DNA of 64,000 nucleotides from Oscillospiraceae bacterium (GTDB taxonomy: Bacteria; Bacillota; Clostridia; Oscillospirales; Ruminococcaceae). Shown in pieces: positions 26,327 through 41,475 of the stretch. The stretch's first letter is position 1. Every line of letters starts with the position of its first letter. The stretch covers positions 623,548 to 687,547 of the forward strand of contig JAJQGT010000006.1 in the NCBI GenBank assembly GCA_021201135.1, given 5' to 3'. The notes under the pieces were generated by a model. It searched no databases, was not told where the DNA came from, and worked only from the letters and a program-made list of their open reading frames with translations. The translations under genes were made by a program, and so were the position numbers.

Positions 26327-26767
26327 TTATTGCTTCTTGGCGAGATAATCCTCCAAGAACTTCACGGCTTCGATATAGCCGTTAAAGCCGAGTCCCATAT
26401 AGGTCTTTACGCATGCCTTGCCGGCGTAGGAAATCTGCCGGAAGTCCTCGCGTTCGTTGACAGCCGAGATATGAACCTCAACCGCAGGAATCGAAACAGC
26501 CTTCAAAGCGTCTAAGATTGCCACGCTTGTGTGGGTGTAAGCCGCCGGATTTATGACTATTCCGTCGAAAACTCCATAGGCATCCTGAATCCTGTCGACG
26601 ATTGCGCCTTCGTGATTCGACTGGAAGAAATCCACTTCTATTCCCCTGCTGTCGCAATATTCGAATATCAGCTTTACAAGCGAGGCATAGGTCTCGGAGC
26701 CATAGATTCCGGGCTCCCTGATTCCGAGCATGTTCAGATTCGGACCGTTTATTACAAGTATTTTCAT
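26327..26767 (-). CDS. aroQ: Type II 3-dehydroquinate dehydratase
   Basis: ILVINGPNLNMLGIREPGIYG; FFQSNHEGAIVDRIQDA; GIVINPAAYTHTSVAI. Confidence 0.96.
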   Translation of the reverse strand: MKILVINGPNLNMLGIREPGIYGSETYASLVKLIFEYCDSRGIEVDFFQSNHEGAIVDRIQDAYGVFDGIVINPAAYTHTSVAILDALKAVSIPAVEVHISAVNEREDFRQISYAGKACVKTYMGLGFNGYIEAVKFLEDYLAKKQ

Positions 26768-27996
26768 TATACCATGCCCTCGATTTCTTTTATAATCCTG
26801 TCGATGGTTTCCGCAACCGTTCCGTTGTTGTCGACCTTTATGTCTGCGAAGCGCTCGTACATAGGCTTGCGATCTTCATAAAGCTCCGATAGATCCGACT
26901 TCTGTGAAATGGGTCTGCCGTCGGTCGGGAGCTTTTGAGTGTCACGCTCGAGCCAGACGATGATGCCGTTCTGATGGAGAAGGTTATAGTTTTCCTCCCT
27001 CGTGACGACTCCGCCACCGGTGGAGATGATTCTCTCAGAAAGCTTGCCGGAGGCTTGCATTTCGGCGGTTTCAAGCCTTCGGAACTCACTTTCGCCGAAG
27101 CGCTCGAATATCTCGGAGATGCTTATCCCGGCATTCTTCACGATTTCCGCATCGGTTTCGATGACCTGCCTATGTAGCCTCTGCCCGAGAGCCTGAGCCA
27201 CGACCGATTTGCCGCTACCCGGCATCCCTATTAATATAATGTTTTCGAGCTCTTTTGTCAACGATTTTTCGATAAATGTAACCGAATCGTCACTAATTTT
27301 TTTATTCTGGAATCGCTCGGAGCTGTATTTTGCCTGCGCCACGAGCATGTGGAGCCCGCTCTTGTACTTAAGTCCGAGAGCTTCGGCTTGCAAAATCAGC
27401 GCCGTTCTCATCGGGTTGTAGATTACGTCAAGGACGCACTCGCAAGCGGGAATTCTTCTTAAATCGAGGGGCGAAACGCCGTTTTTCGGGTACATTCCAA
27501 CGGGTGTCGCGTTTACTACGAGGACAGCATCCGAATGCTTTTCGATGTTGTCGTAGTTGTCTTCGCCCGAGCGACTTATCGGGATTACTTCGGCACCCAT
27601 TTCGCTCAGGACTTTCTTGACGGTCACGCCGGTGCCGCCGGTTCCAAGAACCAAGACTTTTTTGCCGGAGACTTGGACGCCGGTTTCAAGAACCATGCTC
27701 CTGAATCCGTAATAGTCGGTGTTATAGCCATAGATTCTGCCATCGTGCTTGACAAGAGTATTGACGCTTCCAAGGCTTTTTGCAATATCCGAAAGCTCGT
27801 CGCAGAGGGATGCGGCGACCTTTTTATACGGTATCGTGACATTCAAGCCGTCCCAGTCGCCGTGAAGGATGAAGTCTTCGACTTTATCACGGGGGATTTC
27901 GTAGAGACGGTAGTCGTAGTCGCCTAAATAGGCATGAATCCGAGGAGAATAGCTGTGCCCCAAGGTCTCACCTAAGAGACCGCATTTCAACGACAC
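26767..27996 (-). CDS. aroE/aroK: Bifunctional shikimate dehydrogenase / shikimate kinase fusion
   Basis: N-term GLLGETLGHSYSPRIH, NVTIPYKK; C-term IILIGMPGSGKSVVAQAL, ISTGGGVVTR. Confidence 0.92.
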   Translation of the reverse strand: MSLKCGLLGETLGHSYSPRIHAYLGDYDYRLYEIPRDKVEDFILHGDWDGLNVTIPYKKVAASLCDELSDIAKSLGSVNTLVKHDGRIYGYNTDYYGFRSMVLETGVQVSGKKVLVLGTGGTGVTVKKVLSEMGAEVIPISRSGEDNYDNIEKHSDAVLVVNATPVGMYPKNGVSPLDLRRIPACECVLDVIYNPMRTALILQAEALGLKYKSGLHMLVAQAKYSSERFQNKKISDDSVTFIEKSLTKELENIILIGMPGSGKSVVAQALGQRLHRQVIETDAEIVKNAGISISEIFERFGESEFRRLETAEMQASGKLSERIISTGGGVVTREENYNLLHQNGIIVWLERDTQKLPTDGRPISQKSDLSELYEDRKPMYERFADIKVDNNGTVAETIDRIIKEIEGMV

Positions 27997-27997
27997 T

Positions 27998-29185
27998 TTA
28001 TATTACCTCTCTGTAGCTGCCCAAGTAGTTATATTCGCTGCAAATATCTCCGAGCTCGCTCATCAGCTGCAGGAACTGAGGAGAATAGACGGAGGTGTCG
28101 AGGTCGAAATAGAACATGAACTCGAAATCCTTGTCGGGAATCGGGCGGCTCTCAAGCTTCGAAAGGTTGATTCCGAAGGCATAGAGCCTTGAAAGAAGCT
28201 TATAGAGCGAACCGGGCTTATCCTCGAGGACGCACATAAGACTGGTTCTGTCGGCACCGGGATAGATTTCGAGATCCTTCGAGATGCAGATGAATCTTGT
28301 GTAATTGTTGTCGTTGTCCTGAACTGCTGACTTGAGGCATTCGAGACCATAGAGCTTCCGGCATTCACTCGAGGAAAGGGTTGCGATATCGTTTCTATCC
28401 GATTCAGCGACCATCTTGGCGGCAACGGCAGTGTTCTCGCAAGGAATGACTTTGACTCCCTTGAGGGTGGACAAGAATTCGGCGCACTGAGTTATCGCCT
28501 GCTGATGTGAGTAAATCTCGGTGATGTCTTCGAGCTTGGTGCCGCGCTTTGTGAGGAGATTGTGCTCAACCTTCAGGCGGATACTGCGGACGATATTGAA
28601 GCTGTGCTTGGTCATCAGGTCATAGACGGAGTTGACCGAGCCGGCGGTGCTGTTCTCAAGAGGGATTACGCCATACTTGCAGAAGCCCTTTTCGATTGCG
28701 GTAAAGACGGCATCGAAGGTTGAGAAGTACATAACGTTCGGCGACTTGAAGAGCTTCCCTGCGGCTATCGAGGAGTATGCGCCCTCAACGCCCTGACATG
28801 CGACTACGGCACGCTCGGGGAAAAGCTTGGGTGTGTTTTCTATTGCCGAGGAAATTTTTGAGCTGAGCTCGCTTCCCTGACCGATGAGACGGTTCTGATA
28901 GCCGCGGCTGAGCTCCAGGATAAACGAATAGAGAAGCTCGGTGTATTCCTTGAGCTCGTCGGGGGTCTTGTCGACAACGTCCTGAATCTTTTCGCGTTCA
29001 CGACGGATATCTAAGACCGGAAGGCTGTGCTCCTTCTTGAAGGATGCCAAGCCTGCGGCGGTCTCCATTCTCTCGCCGAAAAGCCTGACTATTTCGTTGT
29101 CAATTTCATCAATCTTGTTGCGATAGACCTTTCTGCCGTCGGCGGTGTCGGGTGTAATCTTCTCGGTTTCATCTACAATAGCCAT
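27998..29185 (-). CDS. pheA: Bifunctional chorismate mutase / prephenate dehydratase
   Basis: N-term chorismate mutase (RNKIDEIDNEIVRLFGERMETA), VACQGVEGAYSSIAAGKLF, C-term ACT LESRPIPDKDFEFMFYFDLD. Confidence 0.93.
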   Translation of the reverse strand: MAIVDETEKITPDTADGRKVYRNKIDEIDNEIVRLFGERMETAAGLASFKKEHSLPVLDIRREREKIQDVVDKTPDELKEYTELLYSFILELSRGYQNRLIGQGSELSSKISSAIENTPKLFPERAVVACQGVEGAYSSIAAGKLFKSPNVMYFSTFDAVFTAIEKGFCKYGVIPLENSTAGSVNSVYDLMTKHSFNIVRSIRLKVEHNLLTKRGTKLEDITEIYSHQQAITQCAEFLSTLKGVKVIPCENTAVAAKMVAESDRNDIATLSSSECRKLYGLECLKSAVQDNDNNYTRFICISKDLEIYPGADRTSLMCVLEDKPGSLYKLLSRLYAFGINLSKLESRPIPDKDFEFMFYFDLDTSVYSPQFLQLMSELGDICSEYNYLGSYREVI

Positions 29186-29221
29186 ATGTCATGTCCTTTC
29201 GTGTCTATTATTATAAATATA

Positions 29222-30289
29222 TTATAAGTATTTCTTATATTCGAGATAAGCGTCGTAAACGGCGATTGCGGCGGCGGCTTCGACACAGGGAACCGCACGG
29301 GGCACTATGCAGGGGTCGTGTCGACCCTTTACGACAAGCTCGCCCTCCGTCATGGAATCGAGCCTTACTGAGTGCTGTTTCTGGGAGATTGACGGTGTCG
29401 GCTTGAATGCGGCTTTGAATGTAAGCGGCATTCCGGTTGTGATGCCGCCGAGGATGCCTCCACAGTTATTGGTAGTAGTGACTATTTTGCCGTCCTTGAT
29501 TTCAAACGGGTCGTTATTCTGACTGCCACGAAGCTTTGACGCCTCAAAGCCGATTCCGAACTCTATTCCCTTCACTGCCGGGATTCCGAAGACGATGTTT
29601 GCAATCCTGTTTTCCATTCCGTCGAACATCGGGTCACCGAGCCCCATGGGAAGCCCAAGCACTTTACATTCGACCACTCCCCCGACCGAGTCGCCCTCGC
29701 TCTTGGCTGAGGCTATGCACTCCTGCATCTTAGTGGCGCTCTCGTCGCTTACCGTCGGGAAAGGCTTTCCGGCAGTCGATTCAATGAGCTCGCCGTCATC
29801 GAAAACGTCGCCTATAGAAGCGATCCGGGAAATAACGGTAATGCCCAGGCTTTCGAGAATCTGGAGTACTATTCCTCCGGCAACACACAGCGGCGCTGTC
29901 AGTCTGCCCGAGAAGTGCCCGCCGCCGGCGTAGTCCTGAAATCCGCCGTATTTGACGGATGCAGTATAGTCGGCATGCCCGGGTCTTGGTAGGATTTTAA
30001 GCTCGCTATAATCATTCGAGCGGGTGTCGGTGTTTCTTATAATCGCCGTGAGCGGTGCGCCGCAGGTGACGCCGTCGCGAAGCCCGGAAACGAATTCCGG
30101 TTTGTCGGCTTCCTTGCGGGCTGTTGAATAGGCATTCTTGCCGGGAGCACGACGTGATGTAAAAGCTTCAAGCTTGTCAAAGTCGATTTTTATTCCCGCA
30201 GGGAGCCCCTCGAGGGTCATTCCGATAGCCGCCGAGTGGGACTGTCCGAATATGGTGAGCCTGATGTTACTGCCGATACTGCTTGCCAT
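29222..30289 (-). CDS. aroC: Chorismate synthase
   Basis: IFGQSHSAAIGMTLEGLPAG; TRSNDYSELKILPRPGHADYTA. Confidence 0.96.
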   Translation of the reverse strand: MASSIGSNIRLTIFGQSHSAAIGMTLEGLPAGIKIDFDKLEAFTSRRAPGKNAYSTARKEADKPEFVSGLRDGVTCGAPLTAIIRNTDTRSNDYSELKILPRPGHADYTASVKYGGFQDYAGGGHFSGRLTAPLCVAGGIVLQILESLGITVISRIASIGDVFDDGELIESTAGKPFPTVSDESATKMQECIASAKSEGDSVGGVVECKVLGLPMGLGDPMFDGMENRIANIVFGIPAVKGIEFGIGFEASKLRGSQNNDPFEIKDGKIVTTTNNCGGILGGITTGMPLTFKAAFKPTPSISQKQHSVRLDSMTEGELVVKGRHDPCIVPRAVPCVEAAAAIAVYDAYLEYKKYL

Positions 30290-30305
30290 CTTGCACCGTC
30301 CTTAT

Positions 30306-31553
30306 CTATGATTTTATCTTTAGTGTTAAGAAGTCCTCCCAGAAGTCGGGATAAGACTTTCTTACGCACATGCTGTCAAGCACTGTTACTTTACCGGTTG
30401 ATGCACAGCTTGCGACCGCCGCACTCATTGCGATTCGGTGGTCGTTACAGCTGTCGACCGTGCCGCCGGTGAGATTTCTGACGCCTGTTATGATTATACC
30501 GTCGGGAAGCTCCCTTGCATTGCCGCCGAGATCGTTTATAAGCGCACAGGTCGAGGCGATTCTGTCCGATTCCTTGATTCTGAGGCGTTCGGCGTTGATG
30601 ACTCTTGTTTCGCCCTTGCAGACGGAGGCAACAACGCAGAGTGTCGGAATCAGGTCGGGAATCTGGGAAGCGTCAATCGTGACGCCCTTAAGATTCCCCT
30701 TCTTTACGGTCACCGAATTGCCGTCGACCGAAATATCTGCGCCCATTTCCTTGAGGACTTCGATTGCCGCCTTATCGCCCTGGGTCGAATCGGGGTTCAA
30801 GCCGGTAACCGTGACTCCCTCATCCGAAAGCGCACCCATGCAGAGATAGAACGCCGCATTGGAATAGTCGCCCTCAACGGTGAAGCTCTCGCCCAAATCA
30901 GGTTTCTGTGAGCCTTTTATACAGTAGGTGTCGCCGGTGTGATTGTATTCGATGCCCGACTTCCGAAGAAGCTCTTCGGTCATGGTGATATAGCCCTTTG
31001 ACTGGAGCACTCCCGTCACCCGAAGGGTCGAATCCCCTTCAAGAAGCGGCAACGCCAGAAGAAGCCCGGTTATGTACTGCGAGGAGACATCCCCGGGGAT
31101 TTCGTATTCGCCGGAAGCGAGCCTGCCGGAAACCCGAATTGTGGTTTCGGTCTTCGAAATGCTCATGCCGTGAGCAGTGAGTACTTCGTCCAGAGGACTC
31201 AGCGGGCGGTCGATGAGCCTGCCCTTTGGGATAAAGTCCCCTTCTACTCCCAAAGCTCCGAAAACGGGAATCAGGAACCGAAGGGTCGAGCCGCTTTCTC
31301 CGCACTCGAAAGTGTCTGAGTGCTGACTTGAAACCGGCGAGACATGTATTTTGTTGTTCTGAATCTCTATATTCGCGCCTGCTGAATTCATGCAGTCGGC
31401 AGTGGCGATGATGTCATTGGAGATGCCTTTACAGGTGATTTCGACATCATGCGACCCAAGAGCCGCCAAAATAACGGCTCTGTGCGCCTGAGATTTCGAA
31501 GCAGGTATCAGAACTGAGCCTGTTCTCTCGCCGGGGATGAGTTCTCTTGTCAT
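30306..31553 (-). CDS. aroA: 3-phosphoshikimate 1-carboxyvinyltransferase
   Basis: IPASKSQAHRAVILAAL; ESGSTLRFLIPVFGAL; LRIKESDRIASTCALI. Confidence 0.95.
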   Translation of the reverse strand: MTRELIPGERTGSVLIPASKSQAHRAVILAALGSHDVEITCKGISNDIIATADCMNSAGANIEIQNNKIHVSPVSSQHSDTFECGESGSTLRFLIPVFGALGVEGDFIPKGRLIDRPLSPLDEVLTAHGMSISKTETTIRVSGRLASGEYEIPGDVSSQYITGLLLALPLLEGDSTLRVTGVLQSKGYITMTEELLRKSGIEYNHTGDTYCIKGSQKPDLGESFTVEGDYSNAAFYLCMGALSDEGVTVTGLNPDSTQGDKAAIEVLKEMGADISVDGNSVTVKKGNLKGVTIDASQIPDLIPTLCVVASVCKGETRVINAERLRIKESDRIASTCALINDLGGNARELPDGIIITGVRNLTGGTVDSCNDHRIAMSAAVASCASTGKVTVLDSMCVRKSYPDFWEDFLTLKIKS

Positions 31554-31554
31554 A

Positions 31555-32595
31555 TCAAAGCCAATCCTTAAGCTGAGATTTCGGGAGCTTCATGAGCTCG
31601 CAATGCCCGATTCTACGGGGCACTACTATTGTAATGGTGTCGCTCGTGGCTTTCTTGTCGGAAAGTGCCAATGTGTACATGTCGTCAACTGTGTATTCGG
31701 TATCGGTCGGGAGACCGTATTTCTCTAAGAGTGCAATAATTCTCTCGCAATCAGCGTCGCTCAGATAGCCGTACTTCGCAGCGGAGCGCGAGATGGTCGC
31801 AAGACCGATGGCAACAGCCTGACCGTGAAGGGTCTGGAAGCCGCTCAAGCCCTCGACTGCGTGACCGACGGTGTGCCCGAGGTTAAGGAGCATTCTCTCG
31901 CCGGTGTCGAACTCGTCGGCTTTGACGATATCGCGCTTCATGGTGACGCAGGTGGTGATGACGTTTTCGAGCTGATTCTTGGCGGGGACCTCCTCAAGCT
32001 GGGTGAAGAACTCCTCGCTGAAAAGAACGGCATACTTTATAACTTCGGCACAGCCGCAGAGGTATTCCTCCTCGGGAAGTGTCGAAAGGGTTTTCGGGTC
32101 GCAGATTACGGCTGACGGCTGATAGAAGGAGCCGACCTGATTCTTGCCGTTTTCAAGGTTTACAGCAGTTTTTCCTCCGACAGAGGAGTCGACCATCGCA
32201 AGAAGGGTTGTCGGAATCTGGACAAACTGCACTCCGCGCTGATAGGTTGCCGCCGCAAAGCCGCAAAGATCCCCTACTACTCCGCCGCCGAGAGCGACAA
32301 GCAGGTCACTTCTCGTGACACCGCTTTCGAAGAGGAATTCGAGGAGATTGATATATGAGCTCAAGCTCTTCGAGCGCTCGCCGTGCGGGACGACGAATTC
32401 CTTCACGACGAAGCCCTCGTTCTCGAGGCTCTTCGTAACCCTCTTGCCATAGAGAGGAAAGACGTTGTCATCCGAGACGATGACGGCGGTTTTGCCCTTG
32501 ACAAGGGGCTTGCAGAACTCACCGCACCTGTCTAAAATACCGTCCGAAACGGTTACATCGTAACTTCGGGATGCCGTCACATTTACAACACTCAT
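31555..32595 (-). CDS. aroB: 3-dehydroquinate synthase
   Basis: DLLVALGGGVVGDLCGFAAATYQRGVQFVQIPTTLLAMVDSSVGGKTAVN; LNLGHTVGHAVE. Confidence 0.96.
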   Translation of the reverse strand: MSVVNVTASRSYDVTVSDGILDRCGEFCKPLVKGKTAVIVSDDNVFPLYGKRVTKSLENEGFVVKEFVVPHGERSKSLSSYINLLEFLFESGVTRSDLLVALGGGVVGDLCGFAAATYQRGVQFVQIPTTLLAMVDSSVGGKTAVNLENGKNQVGSFYQPSAVICDPKTLSTLPEEEYLCGCAEVIKYAVLFSEEFFTQLEEVPAKNQLENVITTCVTMKRDIVKADEFDTGERMLLNLGHTVGHAVEGLSGFQTLHGQAVAIGLATISRSAAKYGYLSDADCERIIALLEKYGLPTDTEYTVDDMYTLALSDKKATSDTITIVVPRRIGHCELMKLPKSQLKDWL

Positions 32596-33425
32596 CTTCC
32601 GTCTACCTCCGCTTTTATCTTTCTGCCGTCGTCTAAGAGCTTAATCAGCTCATCTTTATTGTTTTCACGAATCGCAGTTCTGTATTGGTCGAGGTTTTCA
32701 ACCAGAATATCAAGTTCTTTTATAAGATTGTCGCCGTTTTCGAGGAACAGCTCCGCCCACATTTCGGGGTTGAGCCAAGCAACTCTGGTCATGTCCTTAT
32801 AGCTTCCCGCCGAGAAGCCCTTGTGCTCGCGAGCCGTGGGGCTCTTGATATAGGCGTTCGAAACAACGTGGGCAAGCTGGGAGGTGAAAGCAATCATCTC
32901 GTCGTGCTTTTCGGCAGTCGTGACCGAGATGCTTCCGAATCCGGCAGGCTTCAAGAGCTCCTTTGTGTGGCTTAAAAGCTTGATGCTCGGCTCGCCGTTC
33001 GGGACGAGCACCATCGGTGCGCCCTTGTACATGTCGGCTCTGGCATACTTATAGCCGGAATTATGCGTTCCCGCCATAGGGTGTCCGCCGACGAAGGTGA
33101 AGCCGTATTCATCGGCAAGCCTGAAACCAACCTCGGTGACCTTTCGCTTGGTGCCGCAACAGTCGATTACAACCGGCTTTGAGCCGAAATAGGGTGCGGC
33201 TTTCTCGAGATACTCAATGCAGGCGTCGGGATAGACGGATATCAAAACTATGTCACACTCTGAGAGATTATCCATAGTCAGCTCGTCATCGACGTCGCCC
33301 GCAAGCTTGAGGTAATCAAAAGCGGATTTACTTCTGTTCCAGCCGAGGACGGTGTGCCCCGCCTCTTTATAAGCCTTGGCAAACGAGGCTCCTATAAGCC
33401 CCAAGCCCACGATTCCGGCAATCAT
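32592..33425 (-). CDS. tyrA: Prephenate dehydrogenase
   Basis: IVGLGLIGASFAKAYKEAGHTVLGWNRS; VGGHPMAGTHNSGY; QLAHVVSNAYI. Confidence 0.92.
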   Translation of the reverse strand: MIAGIVGLGLIGASFAKAYKEAGHTVLGWNRSKSAFDYLKLAGDVDDELTMDNLSECDIVLISVYPDACIEYLEKAAPYFGSKPVVIDCCGTKRKVTEVGFRLADEYGFTFVGGHPMAGTHNSGYKYARADMYKGAPMVLVPNGEPSIKLLSHTKELLKPAGFGSISVTTAEKHDEMIAFTSQLAHVVSNAYIKSPTAREHKGFSAGSYKDMTRVAWLNPEMWAELFLENGDNLIKELDILVENLDQYRTAIRENNKDELIKLLDDGRKIKAEVDGR

Positions 33426-34426
33426 CCGAGAGCAGCCTCCCTGACAGCAGTGATTTTACTGGATAATTTCTCGAACTCTTCGGGACGAAGCGACTGTGCG
33501 CCGTCGCAGAGAGCGTGCATCGGGTCGTTATGAACCTCGATGATGAGTCCGTCGGCTCCTGCCGCTGTTGCCGCCATTGCCATAGGCGGAACGAGTCTTG
33601 CCATTCCGGTTGCGTGGCTCGGGTCGGCGATTACGGGAAGGTGCGAAAGCTCGTGGAGCATCGGGATTGCCGAGATGTCCATCGTGTTTCTCGTGTAGTC
33701 GCTGTAGGTTCTGATTCCTCTTTCGCAGAGGATGACCTTCTCGTTGCCGGATGCCATGATGTACTCTGCGCTCATGAGAAGCTCCTTGAGGGTATTTGCA
33801 AGACCACGCTTGAGTAAAATCGGCTTGTCGGTCTTGCCGAGCTCCTTGAGCATTTCGAAGTTCTGCATATTTCTTGCGCCGACCTGCAAAACATCGACAT
33901 CCTCGAACAAATCAAGGTCGTTGGTGCTCATGATTTCGGTTACAATGGGAAGTCCTGTTTCCTCACGGGCTATCTTAAGAAGCTCAAGTCCTCTTGCATG
34001 GAGACCCTGGAAGTCATAGGGCGAGGTTCTCGGCTTGAATGCGCCGCCTCTTAGCATGTTTGCGCCCGCCGCCTTGACAGCCTTGGCAACCGCGACAATC
34101 TGGTCTTCGCTTTCGACAGAGCAAGGACCGGCTATCATGCAGAAGTTGCCGCCGCCGATTTTGACGCCCTTAACGTCTATGACGGTATCGTCAGGGTGGA
34201 ATTTGCGGTTACAGCACTTGAAAGCCTCGGTGACTCTGGTGACGGAATCGACTATGTCAAGGCTCTCTATCAAATCCTTGTCGACCTTGGTGGTGTCGCC
34301 GATAAGACAGAGGACCGTTGTGTACTCACCCTCGGAAATATGGACCTTGATGCCCATTCCGCCAAGCCATTCGATAAGCTGATCGCGCTTTTCTTCAGAT
34401 ACATTCTTCTTTAATGCTACTACCAT
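33422..34426 (-). CDS. aroF: 3-deoxy-7-phosphoheptulonate synthase with N-terminal ferredoxin-like regulatory domain
   Basis: MIAGPCSVESEDQIVAVAKAVKAAGANMLRGGAFKPRTSPYDFQGL; PVIADPSHATG. Confidence 0.95.
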   Translation of the reverse strand: MVVALKKNVSEEKRDQLIEWLGGMGIKVHISEGEYTTVLCLIGDTTKVDKDLIESLDIVDSVTRVTEAFKCCNRKFHPDDTVIDVKGVKIGGGNFCMIAGPCSVESEDQIVAVAKAVKAAGANMLRGGAFKPRTSPYDFQGLHARGLELLKIAREETGLPIVTEIMSTNDLDLFEDVDVLQVGARNMQNFEMLKELGKTDKPILLKRGLANTLKELLMSAEYIMASGNEKVILCERGIRTYSDYTRNTMDISAIPMLHELSHLPVIADPSHATGMARLVPPMAMAATAAGADGLIIEVHNDPMHALCDGAQSLRPEEFEKLSSKITAVREAALG

Positions 34427-34484: not shown

Positions 34485-34514
34485 AAAAAAGCTGCACAAG
34501 TAACCTGTGCAGCT
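34485..34514 (-). terminator. Intrinsic terminator of the aro attenuator
   Basis: Minus strand AGCTGCACA GGTTACT TGTGCAGCT TTTTTT: perfect 9-bp stem, 7-nt loop, U-tract, between leader peptide and aroF. Confidence 0.9.
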
Positions 34515-34546
34515 GATAAACAAAACTTTTTGTTGCAACACAAATC
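34502..34546 (-). promoter_or_regulatory. Candidate antiterminator pairing
   Basis: Minus-strand GAUUUGUGUUGC (34535-34546) can pair with GCUGCACAGGUU (34502-34513), 11 of 12 positions counting G-U. Confidence 0.55.
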
Positions 34547-34578
34547 ACTTTACCTTGGGGATTAGCGCATGGTAAAGT
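34547..34578 (-). promoter_or_regulatory. Leader pause hairpin (1:2-type stem) overlapping Tyr-Phe codons
   Basis: ACTTTACC (34571-34578) pairs perfectly with GGTAAAGT (34547-34554), extendable outward by U-G, U-A, A-U. Confidence 0.7.
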
Positions 34579-34633
34579 AATAATAATATGCAAAGCAGAT
34601 AACACCGGACAAACCGGCAATTCGTTTTGACAT
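34562..34633 (-). CDS. Aromatic leader peptide MSKRIAGLSGVICFAYYYYFTMR
   Basis: Own translation; GGAGAG Shine-Dalgarno upstream; run F-A-Y-Y-Y-Y-F; lies between consensus promoter and terminator of the aro operon. Confidence 0.88.
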   Translation of the reverse strand: MSKRIAGLSGVICFAYYYYFTMR

Positions 34634-34688
34634 CGTGCAACTCTCCGTAAAATACTTCATTTGAACGGTTCCACGTTCATCTTTATAG

Positions 34689-34717
34689 ATTATATACGAC
34701 CGTGTGAAGTTTGTCAA
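34689..34717 (-). promoter_or_regulatory. Sigma-A promoter of the aro operon
   Basis: Minus strand TTGACA (34712-34717), 17-nt spacer, TATAAT (34689-34694): exact consensus. Confidence 0.9.
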
Positions 34718-41234: not shown

Positions 41235-41475
41235 AAAAGAGGTAGAGGCGCGGTATGCCAAGAGTAGCGATGCCATGTTGACCGCCGAGGTCGGCATTTG
41301 CGAAAGGGACTACTGCCGAGGACGCTTTACGGCAAAAAAGTGATCCGGCAATGCGGTTAATATCCGTTTTGCTGTCGCACCAAAAGTGCGGAGAGCTATC
41401 GACGTTTCATACTGCGCGGCTGTACGCGCTTATAATGAATCGGCGGCAGCTGCTCTTTGCGGCTGTCTTTTTGTT
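41235..41475 (+). ncRNA. Lysine riboswitch (L-box) with expression-platform terminator
   Basis: AGAGGTAGAGGCGC...CAAGAGTAG...GCGAAAGGGACTACTGCCGAGG...GGAGAGCTATC; P1 GCGCGGTATG (41248-41257) with CATACTGCGC (41408-41417); terminator GGCAGCTGC TCTTT GCGGCTGTC TTTTTG (41445-41472); upstream of dapA. Confidence 0.93.

Follow-up and report, generated by a model that had tools for sequence, protein, structure and literature searches.

A putative leader-peptide attenuator with Tyr and Phe codons upstream of the aroF operon in an Oscillospiraceae bacterium and its relatives among the Clostridia

The analyzed DNA, a 64,000 nt stretch from the genome of an Oscillospiraceae gut bacterium (hereafter the window, whose positions are used throughout), contains on its minus strand an operon of eight genes for aromatic amino acid biosynthesis, aroF-tyrA-aroB-aroA-aroC-pheA-aroE/K-aroQ. 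The first gene aroF (33422–34426, minus strand) codes for a DAHP synthase scoring above the cut-off of NF006421 and TIGR01361, and the remainder of the operon (26327–33425, minus strand) includes tyrA, aroB, aroA, aroC, pheA coding for a chorismate mutase/prephenate dehydratase, an aroE-aroK fusion, and aroQ. A lysine riboswitch (RF00168, 78.9 bits) was also found in the window at 41235–41406 on the plus strand. Six T-box matches were identified elsewhere in the genome, three over the curated cut-off and three below. A sub-threshold match was located directly upstream of trpE in the trp operon trpEGDCFBA (G000:C20:153513-153818; L036, L187), while the other T-boxes precede apparent cysS, valS, leuA, alaS, and thrS genes, with the downstream genes named by eye from translations and trpE alone by family search.

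The minus strand upstream of aroF begins with a sigma-70 type promoter (34689–34717) composed of TTGACA (34717–34712), a spacer of 17 nt, and TATAAT (34694–34689), which agrees with the consensus at 12 of 12 positions and is present in the same-genus relatives L001–L010. It is followed by the Shine-Dalgarno sequence GGAGAG (34641–34646, minus strand), invariant in ten same-genus loci and with an SD-like counterpart before most leaders at the other loci compared, and by a leader peptide ORF of 23 codons (34562–34633, minus strand) translated as MSKRIAGLSGVICFAYYYYFTMR and then a stop. The C-terminal part of the peptide reads CFAYYYYFTMR and its aromatic run is encoded by UUU GCA UAU UAU UAU UAC UUU at 34594–34574. 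A first-pass annotation of the window had described this promoter, the GGAGAG motif, and the 23-codon ORF with its Phe-Ala-Tyr-Tyr-Tyr-Tyr-Phe run at 34633–34562, and all were found in the sequence. The stem that it had placed with its 5' arm over the Tyr and Phe codons was likewise recovered as stem 1:2, the anti-antiterminator (34547–34578, minus strand), in which ACUUUACC (34578–34571) pairs with GGUAAAGU (34554–34547) as indicated by sequence, fold, and co-variation. The 5' arm of this stem lies inside the Tyr/Phe codons of the window leader and the leader stop codon sits between its two arms, a position that would suit classical attenuation. An alternative pairing of GAUUUGUGUUGC with GCUGCACAGGUU, claimed in the same annotation, was present and extends to the antiterminator 2:3 (34498–34550, minus strand), read from the sequence as AAGUGAUUUGUGUUGC (34550–34535) with GCUGCACAGGUUACUU (34513–34498) in 15 of 16 possible pairs. 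The antiterminator has 4 nt (AAGU) in common with the 3' arm of stem 1:2 and the two are therefore mutually exclusive; it also overlaps the 5' arm of the intrinsic terminator 3:4, and since this arm is common to both structures, 2:3 and 3:4 exclude one another as well. The terminator with its U-tract (34485–34514, minus strand; hairpin at 34514–34490) stands before aroF as annotated, but consists of 11 pairs with a 3-nt loop instead of the 9 bp first given.

Folding of the window leader yielded z = -2.5 compared to shuffles, and the minimum free energy fold of the full leader was a mixture of alternative pairing states, as expected of a switch folded without its ribosome. The attenuator element is present as a single copy in the genome, a search for a second copy having returned none. 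A candidate His leader elsewhere in the genome was rejected: its two (CAY)5 matches lay outside any leader-like ORF with a start codon, in a frame overlapping longer coding sequence. Two small hairpins accompany the leader. One within the ORF (34617–34605) has the form CCGG-UUUGU-CCGG and is replaced by GUUGGC-UCC-GCCAAC in relatives, an apparently compensatory change, and is possibly a pause hairpin; the other, GAACG..CGUUC at the transcript start (34679–34662), changes its bases in relatives with pairing kept and is possibly a 5' stabilizer. In the genus, moreover, the leader RBS region GAGUUGCAC (34643–34635) and the terminator 3' arm GUGCAGCUU (34497–34489) show a 9-nt complementarity, which might block the leader RBS once readthrough has occurred or might be due to chance.

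The element is very probably a ribosome-mediated transcription attenuator sensing charged tRNA-Tyr and tRNA-Phe, with its parts identified by sequence. The features found include a codon-enriched short ORF with its own RBS, a terminator between this ORF and the first structural gene, exclusive 1:2, 2:3, and 3:4 pairings with co-variation, and codons matching the operon products. When Tyr and Phe are plentiful, the ribosome would pass the UAU UAU UAU UAC UUU codons, reach the stop, and shield segment 2, such that the terminator 3:4 would form and transcription would end near 34485. When Tyr-tRNA or Phe-tRNA is scarce, the ribosome would stall on the aromatic run and cover segment 1, leaving segment 2 to pair with segment 3 as the antiterminator and the polymerase to continue into the aroF-aroQ operon; if translation were absent, 1:2 and 3:4 would both form and transcription would stop. 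The stalling, antiterminator, and readthrough steps, together with the premature 3' end, are inferred from classical attenuation. The attenuation mechanism advanced in the first-pass annotation has strong comparative support. A short leader ORF preceding aroF could also act on translation, either by translational attenuation or by enhancing reinitiation, yet an intrinsic terminator with a U-tract lies between leader and aroF in the window, 111 of the 119 loci compared have a strong terminator after the leader, and the aroF ATG (34426) is 135 nt from the leader stop and 63 nt from the terminator end, which makes control at translation extremely improbable. Control by translation alone would leave the terminator unexplained.

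The conservation of the leader was evaluated by searching the aroF protein in 149 relatives and 196 genomes of the class and reading the DNA upstream of the matches, where a leader was called if an SD-like motif preceded at least five F/Y in eight residues at no more than 480 nt from aroF. This rule was passed by 61 of 88 aroF upstreams (69%), nearly all from the same order, compared to 0.45% of dinucleotide-shuffled sequences and 1.1% of the reverse complements, scanned by the same rule. The detector takes the most aromatic ORF, a choice for which the shuffle control allows, although single calls may err, and about 30% of the aroF upstreams examined had no such leader by the scan. The sequence FAYYYYFTMR was unchanged in ten same-genus genomes while the N-terminal half varies, and other genera and families encode dissimilar peptides of the same aromatic character, such as MLRNYFYNAYYFYFTTIYKL, MKNFMFAYEYFYFYFYFTLKNK.., MALNCTKKYYYYFSFTSFFGKACFGSLQ, and MKNQLFAFAYFYFYFYFKVRAICAANN.. 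(the dots marking partial sequences). Across the class, dozens of other families likewise had aromatic-rich leaders before aroF, and among further families of the phylum leaders occurred in some and T-boxes in others. In a second collection with organism names, 64 of 77 loci had a leader at the level of at least five F/Y/W, with Oscillospiraceae and Ruminococcus sp. MAGs as the nearest relatives. The leader ORF, stem 1:2, antiterminator, and terminator are thus found again throughout the genus, in the order, and in a large part of the class, and the lack of conservation that the first-pass annotation had named as evidence against its reading was not observed. A same-genus group (L091–L095 in G003, G005, G010, G017, and G018) has only a more distant DAHP synthase of 52–56% identity, whose upstream region contained neither a leader nor an Rfam element. 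Tandem aroF genes were observed at L210 (G068) and L211 (G080), each gene with its own leader and terminator and the first leader Tyr-richer, a tandem arrangement of two putative attenuators within a single operon.

A T-box or riboswitch might instead control the terminator by binding tRNA or a ligand, the short ORF being a by-product of U-rich sequence. T-boxes are present at aminoacyl-tRNA synthetase genes, leuA, and the trp operon in the same genome, and one precedes aroF in three of 19 phylum-level loci from more distant families (L379, L384, L386). At the window leader, however, the T-box covariance model RF00230 gave no match, no Rfam family reached its gathering score, and relaxed thresholds returned only chance matches, while the frequency of F/Y ORFs is far above that of shuffles of equal composition; a chance U-rich ORF was ruled out by the shuffle and reverse-complement controls. 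The Rfam Phe, Trp, His, Leu, and Thr leader families also had no match at gathering score in the window or at 20 other loci, most with leaders, where no Rfam family lay over the aroF leaders and the only match was a cobalamin riboswitch 3 kb away at L199. No Rfam family was found in 20 further aroF upstreams, most without a leader, and searches of Pfam and NCBIfam with the leader peptides retrieved no family. Direct RNA sensing of this kind is accordingly highly unlikely at the window aroF, and the exchange of the leader peptide for a T-box in distant families appears to be a lineage-level swap of the sensing device. The T-box before the trp operon, together with the leader before aroF, therefore suggests one genome using a T-box for Trp and a leader peptide for Phe and Tyr. 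The earlier proposal of control over the whole aromatic amino acid operon holds for Phe, Tyr, and the common pathway. It does not extend to Trp, whose operon lies elsewhere in the genome with its own T-box-like leader.

Selection on the alternative stems was analyzed by swap tests instead of a covariance model because loop lengths and ORF ends differ much between families. At 88 loci, with the closest duplicates removed, the region from the aromatic codons to the terminator was paired with its own terminator 5' arm or those of other species. Antiterminator pairing averaged -14.6 kcal/mol for own pairs vs. -10.9 kcal/mol for swapped pairs (z = -13.7, with 0 of 20,000 permutations as extreme) and stem 1:2 yielded z = -10.8 in its swap test on the 88 loci, where some related loci remain in the set and the z-scores are therefore not exact probabilities. 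Since close relatives show no variation in the Tyr/Phe run or the stems, the pairing evidence comes mostly from distant loci, for which the pairing segments were chosen by rule. Aromatic-codon bases form part of the 5' arm of stem 1:2 at 85 of 88 loci. The 3' arm of this stem overlaps the antiterminator half at 65 loci and lies within 6 nt of it at 14, giving 79 of 88. A change of partners is exemplified by AGCUUUACC/GGUAAGGCU (L026, L028), which becomes AGCUUUGCC/GGCAAGGCU at L022. On this comparative evidence, both alternative stems are shown to co-vary with their partners, a check that the first-pass annotation had proposed, and to be under selection for pairing, while the leader is under selection for its Tyr/Phe content.

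The same stems bear on an arrest-peptide mechanism, in which the nascent leader together with free Phe/Tyr or another ligand would stall the ribosome as in TnaC, with no sensing of tRNA charging. A recurrent GxxFSAGYxxC or FFGKA motif in many class-level leaders could be taken in its favor, but the FSAGYxxC and FFGKA motifs encode arms of the co-varying 1:2 RNA stem and are missing from the window leader, and we consider this mechanism improbable for that reason. Leader N-termini and lengths also vary widely, and tandem Tyr/Phe codons in a product-matched ratio are what codon sensing predicts.

This ratio was first seen as a pattern of Tyr-rich leaders with aroF-tyrA operons and Phe-rich leaders with aroF-pheA operons. 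Paralogous operons of G077 provide an example, with the leader AYYYYGFAYDY at the tyrA operon and FTFFFSWAFFF at the pheA operon, and the leaders of paralogous operons in G142 and G063 differ in the same manner. Four new searches supplied 120 further loci on which to test this pattern. The comparison used 106 dereplicated leaders, each taken as the ORF richest in aromatic residues under a rule that treats F, Y, and W alike. Median Y/(Y+F) was 0.61 for tyrA-only operons (n = 24), 0.44 where tyrA is combined with the common pathway (n = 41), 0.31 where the common pathway lacks tyrA (n = 36), and 0.125 for pheA-only operons of the aroF-pheA type (n = 5), the operons being classed by the 1.1 to 9 kb of sequence that follows. 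The tyrA-only group differed from the pooled no-tyrA and pheA-only groups (p = 6e-10), and phylogenetic independent contrasts on the aroF tree gave t = 8.1 and p of about 1e-12 with classes coded 1, 0.5, and 0 by our own choice. Sister pairs differing in operon type all differed in the predicted direction (10 of 10), and a largely independent second sample, with leaders unlike the exploratory set and one overlapping locus (L247), gave p = 1.6e-5. Exceptions were a few tyrA-only operons with Phe-rich leaders, such as L255. Leader specificity thus follows operon content, with the balance of Tyr and Phe codons apparently tuned to the end products of the operon, and it would be difficult to account for the match of ratio to product if the codons did not act as the sensor. 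Many class-level leaders also contain a Trp codon (SWGYFF, FWGFYF), often within the 1:2 stem (L156, L168, L175, L087, L089, L154), which may respond to the pathway's third product or be kept in place by the pairing of the stem. The idea that such Trp codons signal trp genes in the operon was discarded, as none of 14 Trp-leader loci had trp genes in the aro operon itself; at L199, trpG/trpE lie ~3 kb beyond it.

Aromatic genes of Firmicutes are usually described under T-box or TRAP control, leader-peptide attenuation is best known from Proteobacteria, and to our knowledge no Tyr leader attenuator has been characterized so far. We find it reasonably probable that class-wide attenuators sensing Tyr and Phe codons, and in some lineages also Trp codons, are the standard control of aromatic pathway entry in Clostridia in replacement of T-boxes, that their specificity evolves by Tyr/Phe codon swaps when tyrA and pheA enter or leave an operon, and that they include the first Tyr-specific leader-peptide attenuators. 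A single Tyr/Phe leader family, for which Rfam, Pfam, and NCBIfam have no entry, seems to control the synthesis of aromatic amino acids in a large part of the Clostridia, common gut lineages among them. As its codon content changes with the operon products, it offers a natural specificity series, from Tyr-only through mixed to Phe-only, in which attenuator evolution can be tested; it bears on why lineages exchange tRNA-binding T-boxes for ribosome sensing and on the response of gut bacteria to Tyr and Phe supply, and leader content can aid the annotation of which aroF paralog serves which amino acid.

The element is placed with the ribosome-mediated attenuators because every testable feature of these systems was found in it, its lineage and specificity being undescribed in the literature searched. 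That literature contained no report of a leader attenuator for a Clostridia aro operon, with a mention possible in Lopatovskaya et al. (2010) or Panina et al. (2003), and as far as we found it is unpublished for the group. T-box and TRAP control of aromatic genes has been reported for low-GC Gram-positive bacteria (T-box survey PMC2494555, citing Panina et al., 2003). The T-box resembles the present system in that tRNA charging governs transcription antitermination at aromatic biosynthesis genes, and differs in binding tRNA directly, without translation, and in being absent at the window aroF. The uORFC-13-1 motif upstream of aroF in Acholeplasma, with 24 representatives from Acholeplasma and environmental sequences only, has a predicted uORF with at least one Phe codon, a promoter, and a terminator, and attenuation was proposed for it (Brewer et al., 2021; PMC8632094). 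It thus shares with the window a Phe-codon uORF, promoter, and terminator before aroF, whereas the text compared here reports neither a run of Tyr/Phe codons nor a connection to operon content. Leader-peptide attenuation in Gram-positive bacteria is also represented by the hisZ/hisS leader peptide in bacilli (Naville and Gautheret, 2010; PMC2965389) and the Leu-rich ilv leader of S. aureus (Kaiser et al., 2018; PMC5794164), which differ from the present leader in amino acids and lineage (Bacilli). The classical attenuators of Proteobacteria (pheA/pheST, trp, his, and leu; Rfam Phe_leader and Trp_leader) have, as here, a peptide rich in the controlled amino acid, alternative 1:2, 2:3, and 3:4 stems, and an intrinsic terminator before a biosynthetic operon. 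Unlike them, the Clostridia element is without an Rfam leader match, combines Tyr and Phe codons in a ratio apparently tuned to operon content, and would control entry to the chorismate pathway.
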